From the NCBI GenBank assembly GCA_002900995.3, contig PJEW03000013.1, positions 382,208 through 446,207 of the forward strand: a stretch of 64,000 nucleotides of DNA. The letters are read 5' to 3'. Below, in pieces: positions 51,749-53,799 of this stretch (positions within the stretch are counted from its first letter, which is position 1; every line of letters starts with the position of its first letter). Origin of the DNA: Ganoderma boninense. Its lineage: Eukaryota > Basidiomycota > Agaricomycetes > Polyporales > Polyporaceae. The notes beneath the pieces are model-generated. The model was not told where the DNA came from. It searched no databases and saw only the letters and a list, made by a program, of their open reading frames with translations. A program made the translations under genes and the position numbers.

Positions 51749-53799
51749 CTAGGTGGGGATAGCCTTAGGCTCTTCGAACGCACAAGCGGTCCAGCCGCCC
51801 TTCTTCCCAGTCTTGAGGTCCTCGACCTCTTTGGAAATCGTGTACGTCTCCTCCCATTTACAATCGGTTATCTTGCACCAGACAACCACCTCCCGCTCAT
51901 CCTTGCTGATGATGTTCTTCTTCTCCTCCCTTGACGACAGCACGCCACACGCAGGGCACTGGATGCCGATGTCCAGTCCAACTGGACGCATTGTATTGTG
52001 GGTCCACTTGTACTCGATAATGCGTAGCACGGGTGGTGAATCCTCTTGCGCTTCGTGATAAAAGTGGAAAGCGGCGTGTGACGGGCGATGAAAACAGCGT
52101 GATCGAGACGAGTGGCCATGGTGTGGTGTGTCAAAGGCATATCTTCAATGAAGACTTGGTGGACGAAGTTGTAGAACAACAGAGATGGAAGTGAGGGCTG
52201 CAGTTCCTTTGTGAAGAAACCAAAAATATAGGTTACACATATACTATCCATAAACATTGTTACGCTTCGCAGACATTCCAGATACCATAACTTACCCCGT
52301 TAATGCAGCCTTAAGCTCGTTGCGCGTTGTGTGGTGGATGATCAGGGAGCCGCATGCAAGCAGCCCCACGTACAGCTGGTCATCGCTCGTAGGTGCAATC
52401 TGACCCAGGTCCACCACTAGGGAGCAAGCGTAAGCAACGTGTCATGTGTGTCCTCTAAACACTGACTTCTCCGACACTGCTGAATGAGTAGTTCTCCCCG
52501 AGAAACAAGTCGCCGTAGTCATCGTGGGAATGCATGTATATGAACACAAAGATACGTGAGTTCTTGAGTCTGCGCGAGCCTGTCATTGCATGCACGTTAC
52601 GGTGATGAAATAGTTCACATAATCTCACAAGGCGTTGAGATGCTTGTTTGTGCGAGAGCGGAATTGCGCTTCGGGACTTGGAGTGCGCGATAGAGGTTGG
52701 GCTTCGGGGTTGGGCTGGGGGATGTTGAATGGCAGGTCGATGTAATCGGACCACGGCGTGAGTAGGAGTCACGCTGGCGAGCTGCATTCTCGGAGTGTTG
52801 CAAGGCGTATGTTCAATATGATGACTGGGCTCGTGTTTACTCGGCTATGCTGAGGTCGAGTAGACGACATGCACCCACTCGGGAAAGTAAGGTCACTCCC
52901 TCCCCGGGTACTCTCAGCCGCCCCAGCCAGAATAGTCAGAGGACGTAACTTACAAAGTATGAGGCAGCGGGTTTGTATTTGGCCGGTTCCTTTCCCTTTT
53001 GAACATGCGCCCCCTGCCCAACGTGCGAGGAGGGCACCCTGGGGCTGCTTCGGAGCGCCATGCATAGGCTGCCTCACGCTCTGCGCCTTCACCCGGCCCT
53101 CTGTCTGGTCCTCATTCGGCTTCCCATCGGCACGTGTCTTCAACGTATGACATGGAGGACATTGAAAATGGAGAGTCTTGAGGATCTCGGGCGACAACTC
53201 CGCAATTTTGGGCGTGTGCGACAGGCACATGACACGGCTGCATGCATCGTCGTCACAGACGAGTAGATTTCCTCCGTTCTGACATATGAAACAGAACTGC
53301 ACCCACTGTCACACAGGGAGACAACATGAAAGCAGTGATATGCCTTACGATGTCTGAAGTCTCGTCGTAGTTCATGGGCCCCGTGGGTTCCTTCTCCTTG
53401 GGTTCTTTACCCTTGGTCTTCTTTGGAGAATCGCCGACAGATGCCACCGTGGTGGATTCCTCGCGCCTCTCGAGGCCATGATCTTCGTCGCTGCGCCCTT
53501 CCTCAACGTCCGGGTCACTGGCATACTCGGTCAGCTTGGGACGTTTCGTCTTCCCGACCCTCTCTGCTACGCGGAAGTAAGGTTCTCGTCATATTAAGGC
53601 AGCGAATGACTTAGTTGTCTGCGCCGGCCCCCCGGTTCATCTTCCTTTGCGGAGGATATTTCTATGGGTTCCGGAACTGTCGGGAAGCGATTCAGTTTGG
53701 CTAGGGGAGGAGAGATGTATACGTTGAGGACGTACTCGTACACTTCCGGGGCGCCTTTCCTCCAGTACTTCGACGCGCCGTCTGCTTAGTGCGGGCCAT
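51749..53799 (-). CDS. histone H3-tail mimic protein with PHD-like zinc finger
   Basis: Exons 53799-53742, 53700-53611, 53566-53349, then from 53305; the first three introns are 41, 44 and 43 nt, phases 1, 1, 0, and the frame stays open. Exon 1 encodes MARTKQTARRSTGGKAPRK: histone H3 residues 1-18 with Lys9 replaced by Arg. A charged linker follows (SPKKTKGKEPKEKEP). Residues 123-175 (exon 4) form a PHD-like finger: C127-x2-C130, C139-x4-C144, C149-x2-H152, C171-x2-C174, within QNGGNLLVCDDDACSRVMC. Later exons: TSPVIILNIRLATL, TPWSDYIDLPFNIPQPNPEA (about 52740-52640), SRRLKNSRIFVFIYMHSHDD YGDLFLGE (about 52560-52470), VDLGQIAPTSDDQLYVGLLA CGSLI (52405-52300), CVTYIFGFFTKELQPSL, and a C-terminal CPAC...WCKITDCKW motif. 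Exons after the fourth are approximate. Near 52080 two frames overlap (MATRLDHAVFIAR versus FHFYHEAQEDSPPVLRIIEY), so a frameshift or a missed intron is present. I recall Agaricomycete proteins of this layout, but no function. A nuclear role is inferred. Confidence 0.75.

Follow-up and report, generated by a model that had tools for sequence, protein, structure and literature searches.

A Ganoderma gene that starts with a histone H3 tail belongs to a mushroom family combining a PHD-like finger with a predicted caspase/CHAT-like protease

The window considered here is a stretch of 64,000 nucleotides of the Ganoderma boninense genome (contig PJEW03000013.1, positions 382,208 to 446,207), and its minus strand carries a gene of 2 kb overall, from 53799 down to about 51760, that starts as a histone and continues as a different protein. 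The ATG at 53799 begins MARTKQTARRSTGGKAPRK, which equals residues 1–18 of histone H3 save for Lys9 changed to Arg (18 of 19 residues match, the Met counted). A degenerate ARTKQTA pattern has this single site in the window, where a mean of 0.01 is expected by chance. No histone fold follows the tail in the window copy, which continues instead with a charged linker, a zinc finger and an alpha/beta core. An earlier note on this DNA, made from the sequence alone, had proposed that an H3 tail, with K9 changed to Arg, begins a protein that is not a histone, and this much stands.

The intron and exon limits of the window copy (Table 1) were set by splice-aware alignment to an intact paralog on contig C1 (L009) or, where the table says so, by eye. 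They revise the layout given before: exon 1 had been ended right after K18 and runs two codons and one base further, and intron 1 had been read as 41 nt. The 44-nt intron 2 is possible solely through a weak donor; the downstream GTAAGT donor of the paralog (the second donor) is lost in the window copy. Intron 3, given as 43 nt, is in frame by eye, whereas the paralog alignment makes it 52 nt, ending just ahead of the finger, and the exon bearing the finger extends to about 52954. The window copy aligns with the paralog over its full length with three in-frame stops and five frame breaks, some of which could be bypassed by alternative splice sites; two of these lesions, a stop near 52771 and a frame break near 52071, interrupt the caspase/CHAT-like domain. 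Judged by this alignment, the window copy is decaying and no longer encodes the whole protein. Its core substitutions still look constrained relative to the paralog (pN 0.19, pS 0.61), and the damage thus seems recent.

Table 1. Features of the H3-tail gene in the window.
Feature	Position	Strand	Basis and remarks
Exon 1, H3-tail exon, MARTKQTARRSTGGKAPRKC plus one further codon and a split codon	53736..53799	-	comparison with C1 paralog
Intron 1, GTACGT...ACAG, 59 nt	53677..53735	-	comparison with C1 paralog; position after 64 coding bases common to C1, C9 and C12 copies
Exon 2, charged linker	53611..53676	-	end at 53611 set by eye, at a weak GTCATT donor
Exon 3, charged Lys/Glu-rich linker	53349..53566	-	start read by eye
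PHD-like zinc finger, FCFICQNGGNLLVCDDDACSRVMCLSH...CPPCH	53135..53296	-	class from homologs; end approximate
Predicted caspase/CHAT-like domain	52069..52870	-	limits approximate; fold from homologs P0010 and P0014
Predicted catalytic His codon, MHSHDDYGD (C1 copy: THSHDEYGD)	52530..52532	-	motif
Predicted catalytic Cys codon, LLACGSL	52352..52354	-	motif
C-terminal zinc ribbon, IQCPACG...WCKITDCKW, and gene end	51760..51990	-	limits approximate

The same architecture recurs across the genome (55.6 Mb, 74 contigs searched). The intact paralog (contig C1, at 3128679) has eight exons, seven GT-AG introns of 49–54 nt and 606 codons, and its parts follow in the order tail, Lys/Glu-rich linker, finger (FCFICQNGGNLITCDERGCGRVMCLSH...CPSCH), a region containing IFIFIYTHSHDEYGDLYYG as well as YVAMLACGAL, and finally a zinc ribbon at the C-terminus. 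Searching the genome with protein (E 0.1) gave 49 exon matches, 47 at ten family places and two, weak, to the tails of H3 genes. Open gene models from tail to ribbon are found for the C1, C9 and C12 copies; for C12, a first splice model of 95 residues was dropped, 12 linker splice pairs gave more than 500 residues, and the model chosen (581 residues) uses the GTAAGT donor at the paralog's position. Tail and body are joined at six loci (the window, C1:3128679, C9, C12:2290069, C1:1926043 and C2:171465), and in these copies and the one on C22 (by eye) an intron closes the tail exon near residue 20–21. A scan for the tail pattern gave 19 sites with at most one mismatch, of which 11 are exact (three H3 genes and eight others); the reversed pattern gave none exact and one with a mismatch.

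A broken copy such as that in the window could be an artefact of gene modeling or assembly, in which the first exon of an H3 gene happens to lie beside another gene. This is extremely improbable, since tail and body occur together at the six loci and in the predicted proteins of eight named species. In addition, the translations of the genuine H3 genes (two on C8 and one each on C5 and C2) show, by eye, other exon limits than the tail gene has, which is thus not a misread H3. A profile of the whole family against PDB sequences met H3-type chains solely with its first 30–56 positions, and these were H3, H3-variant and H3/CENP-A chimera chains only (among 60 of 170 matches listed). A CENP-A-like H3 variant gene was also seen by eye at C4:2063000-2065500 (L014), with a divergent N-terminus bearing ARKSTGGRPPR.

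Two protein searches recovered 23 family proteins (P0001-P0023), from Ganoderma sinense, G. leucocontextum, Earliella scabrosa, Dichomitus squalens, Polyporus arcularius, Suillus tomentosus, Pisolithus albus and Pleurotus djamor, plus P0015. Earliella belongs to the Polyporales, Pisolithus to the Boletales and Pleurotus to the Agaricales; the remaining genera are placed by their usual classification. All but P0015 are labeled 'hypothetical protein' by NCBI, and UniRef labels P0007 a peptidase S53 protein. The ARTK motif is present in 21 of the 23, the finger motif in 18, and the predicted His and Cys motifs in 22 each; some of the missing motifs may be gene-model gaps. No Pfam family lies above cut-off for the C1 model or P0010, and library scans of other members gave weak E-values only (best 0.006 in Pfam, 3.3e-4 in NCBIfam, 0.039 in PADLOC); the C-terminus of the C1 model has weak zinc-ribbon matches. 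A tree of 20 of the 23 proteins with the C1 paralog places the six Earliella proteins together (91/88) and joins C1 to the nine Ganoderma proteins (94/95); neither group reaches the program's star, and very long branches leave the placement of Pleurotus and Suillus unsure. This Agaricomycete family is multi-copy and lineage-specific with decaying members, a pattern that fits conflict genes. The protein is not the soluble decoy suggested in the earlier note; its tail opens a multidomain family that occurs in several fungal orders and joins a finger to a predicted protease.

The tail is the best-kept part of these proteins. In 33 tails (22 from databases and 11 from the G. boninense genome, not independent and decayed copies included), T3, Q5 and G12 are invariant, A1, R2 and A7 change once each, and 14 of the first 17 positions hold the H3 residue in more than 70%, with the consensus ARTKQ[TS]A[RK]xSTGxxAPRxxL. 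The lysines fare differently: K4 is kept in 30 of 33, K14 in 14, K18 in six and K9 in five. The retention of K4 is compatible with the earlier suggestion that the protein could bear marks of the H3K4 type. Position 9 may be Q, R, K, V, N, D, H or E, so that its change to Arg is not the specific feature it had been taken for. In pairwise comparison, mean identity is 0.76 in the tail, 0.31 in the finger, 0.23 in the core and 0.14 in the linker (45 pairs), and 0.25 in the ribbon (39 pairs); the 45 pairs are those involving P0014, P0015 or P0023 among 17 proteins, one of which lacks the tail, and one pair is probably within the Boletales. Over 19 tail codons, the window and C1 copies have ten synonymous and no nonsynonymous differences (linker pN 0.41), and five other tail-bearing copy pairs have 1–2.5 nonsynonymous against 5–15 synonymous differences in the tail. 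Together, these comparisons show that the tail is strongly selected for its protein sequence.

The finger is of a type that may suit such a tail. A profile of 14 family fingers against PDB matched CHD4 (1.5e-5), TRIM33, PHF21A/BHC80, TRIM66, AIRE, TRIM24 and SP140, with E-values from 1.5e-5 to 1.4e-3 for the first six. In the 14 aligned fingers the ligands run C-x2-C, C-x2/4-C, C-x2-H (or C) and C-x2-C. The residue that forms the cage for trimethylated K4 lies between the fourth and fifth PHD ligand, and no Trp is found there in the 17 fingers listed. BHC80, AIRE-PHD1, CHD4 and TRIM24 are described as readers of H3 unmodified at K4 in an excerpt of PMC3471955, and TRIM66 as preferring unmodified H3 in an excerpt of PMC6979384. 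At the level of sequence profiles, the finger thus resembles readers of H3 unmodified at K4, and it may bind an H3 tail.

The core is predicted to be a caspase/CHAT-like protease with a conserved His-Cys pair. For both predicted models (P0010 and P0014, the latter a Suillus protein whose linker is short) a CHAT-type fold was the top match, and in the P0010 model H289 (strand 280–290) and C336 (strand 327–336) sit at the ends of core strands; the Pfam, NCBIfam and PADLOC matches include no curated CHAT or caspase family model. A finger of this class on a protease could also mean that the finger brings the enzyme to unmodified H3 tails, where it would clip H3 or a neighbor, with its own tail as pseudosubstrate or propeptide, possibly cut near A15-P16-R17. 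A15 and R17 are indeed kept (31 and 28 of 33 tails), and separase, a CHAT relative, cuts after EXXR (excerpt of PMC9729208). However, there is no EXXR around R17, no Arg-holding residue was identified in the core, and K18-Q19 of H3 are mostly lost, which makes such a chromatin protease quite unlikely.

From the architecture and the selection on the tail we infer a different function. One chain holds both an Ala1-Arg2-Thr3-Lys4 end, likely free, and a finger similar to those known to bind just such an end. The simplest reading is that one binds the other: in this Agaricomycete family, the tail would be a built-in ligand of the finger that holds the protease off, a reading to which we give a probability of about 0.4. 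The free end would dock in the finger of its own or a partner chain and so keep the protease off; writing on the tail, where K4 is the best-kept lysine, or competition from the H3 tails of chromatin would release it and turn the protease on. The output would be death or defence, as for other fungal CHAT proteases; death is suggested by the fungal CHAT protease that activates gasdermin (excerpt of PMC12881547). It is a rather doubtful extension that the family is a histone-tail-gated protease, with reader, tail and caspase-like executioner in one protein, set on or off, through marks on the tail, by the cell's own H3K4-writing machinery or by an invader that disturbs it; such a protein would be a chromatin-state sensor wired straight to cell death.

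The lineage-specific expansion and decay, the predicted death-type protease and a tail kept while the rest diverges would also suit an integrated bait. The tail would then imitate H3 for an H3-modifying or H3-binding protein of an invader or mobile element, which would trigger the protease, making the protein a guard that carries its own decoy, and the finger would mainly hold the unmodified tail. Such a bait is hard to tell from gating in cis by sequence; one scan of viral contigs did not find the exact tail pattern, no invader protein was identified, and we consider it unlikely.

Several observations weigh against the tail as a built-in ligand of the finger. Docking of the tail is not seen in the AlphaFold models of P0010 and P0014, where residues 1–11 and 1–13 have a pLDDT under 50 and are drawn as helix. 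Some of the PDB matches of the finger, TRIM33 and TRIM24 included, span only the first half of the profile, and single-sequence Pfam support is weak (PF00628 in nine of 14 fingers, best E 3.9e-4, and in one of 11 full-length proteins, E 0.28). The later ligands, CxxH(C)...CxxC, depart from the canonical HxxC...CxxC of the C4HC3 order. Two copies of the G. boninense genome carry K4 changed to Arg, one Earliella protein has AGTQQ, and no gasdermin-like neighbor occurs among 20 of 56 listed flanking open reading frames scanned by Pfam. Finally, conservation extends to L20. PHD fingers contact few tail residues, and another partner may thus read the tail. SNAG-type H3 mimics are known, and the tail could likewise be a recruitment tag that fits some other nuclear protein binding H3 tails, be it an LSD1-type demethylase (the partner of SNAG), a SET1-type complex or an importin, and so provides location and not gating. 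That is distinctly improbable: an H3-type finger stands in the same chain as the tail in many members, and K14 and K18 are often lost, which speaks against an H3 import signal.

Beyond the joined copies, tail sequences occur in other settings in the genome. In the C22 copy, the tail exon is separated from the body by a retroelement (L063, C22:22500-31500) whose C-terminus looks, by eye, like a chromodomain. Five related dispersed repeats (L036, L041, L047, L052 and L053, on C2, C11, C1, C6 and C17) carry a degraded H3-tail exon, in some frame-broken, with no finger or core within 1.5 kb on either side of the tail. They share an abrupt left end, ACCTTGGGTACCAAGGTTACTGGCGAG, present at 14 genome sites with up to two mismatches, and are apparently a mobile element with a captured first exon. 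A further tail, MARTKQTARRSTGGK and then diverging, lies at C13:457293, 11 kb past the window end; another family body (C13:462700-464443) follows about 5 kb downstream of it. The C12 and C9 copies are each preceded by tandem repeats (L054 and L055) that by eye are open in three frames. Neighbors were scanned with Pfam, ten of 48 listed open reading frames in the window and the 20 of 56 beside the C1, C9 and C12 copies. The one match at E 0.01 was a reverse transcriptase with a retroviral-type protease near C12, and thus no gene partner is proposed.

Outside the family, a protein-database search with the tail alone scored ten candidates. In that search common H3 words seem to be skipped and K9 tails could be missed, so the absence of K9 among its matches is biased. 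Two unrelated H3-tail starters were seen, a VWA-RING protein (P0024, EukProt transcript, MARTKQTARVSTGGKAPRKAW...) and a SIMPL-domain protein (P0025, MARTKQTARQSTGGKAPRQV...). Their E-values are weak (2.3 and 3.1) because the tail alone matches, and both are without K9, though the search favored such tails. The grafting of H3 tails onto other proteins may be more widespread.

Among the open-licence papers listed in literature searches, no title or abstract opening describes a family with tail, finger and predicted protease; as far as these searches reach, the protein is as undescribed as the earlier note supposed. To our knowledge, no other family unites an entire H3 tail exon with an H3-type finger and a predicted protease in a single chain. 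An H3 tail has been retained across three fungal orders while the protease core has fallen to about a quarter identity. The family offers a natural experiment on H3 residues freed of nucleosome packing, with R2, K4, Q5 and R17 largely kept and K9, K14 and K18 often lost, and allows a clear test of whether an enzyme can be controlled by a protein that reads a histone tail of its own. This would link chromatin marks to fungal immunity or allorecognition.

Each part has known relatives. CHAT, SAVED-CHAT and TPR-CHAT (Craspase) proteases and the fungal CHAT proteases upstream of gasdermin share the predicted fold and the His-Cys pair at two core-strand ends; they carry TPR, SAVED or NLR parts where the mushroom family has an H3 tail and finger, and the latter matches none of their family models among the library matches. 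The PHD fingers of BHC80, AIRE-PHD1, CHD4 and TRIM24/66, the best PDB profile matches, have the CxxCxxGGxLxxCDxC core in common with the family, whereas their HxxC...CxxC is replaced by CxxH...CxxCH in a finger weak by single-sequence Pfam. For a PHD finger hindered by a histone-like segment of its own protein, BAZ2B is a precedent: an H3-like stretch of its PHD-linker interacts with the PHD and lowers H3 binding (excerpt of PMC5663869). The Lys-rich linker stretches of BAZ2B merely resemble H3, whereas residues 1–18 of the mushroom proteins are near-identical to H3 and stand at the extreme N-terminus, before a predicted protease. Most known cases of histone mimicry involve short motifs, and H3-tail mimics include the SNAG domain of SNAIL/GFI1, PAF15, influenza NS1 and G9a. 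These are likewise non-histone proteins that present an H3-like peptide; they match few residues, whereas the mushroom family keeps a long tail and joins it to a reader-like finger and a predicted enzyme within one chain.
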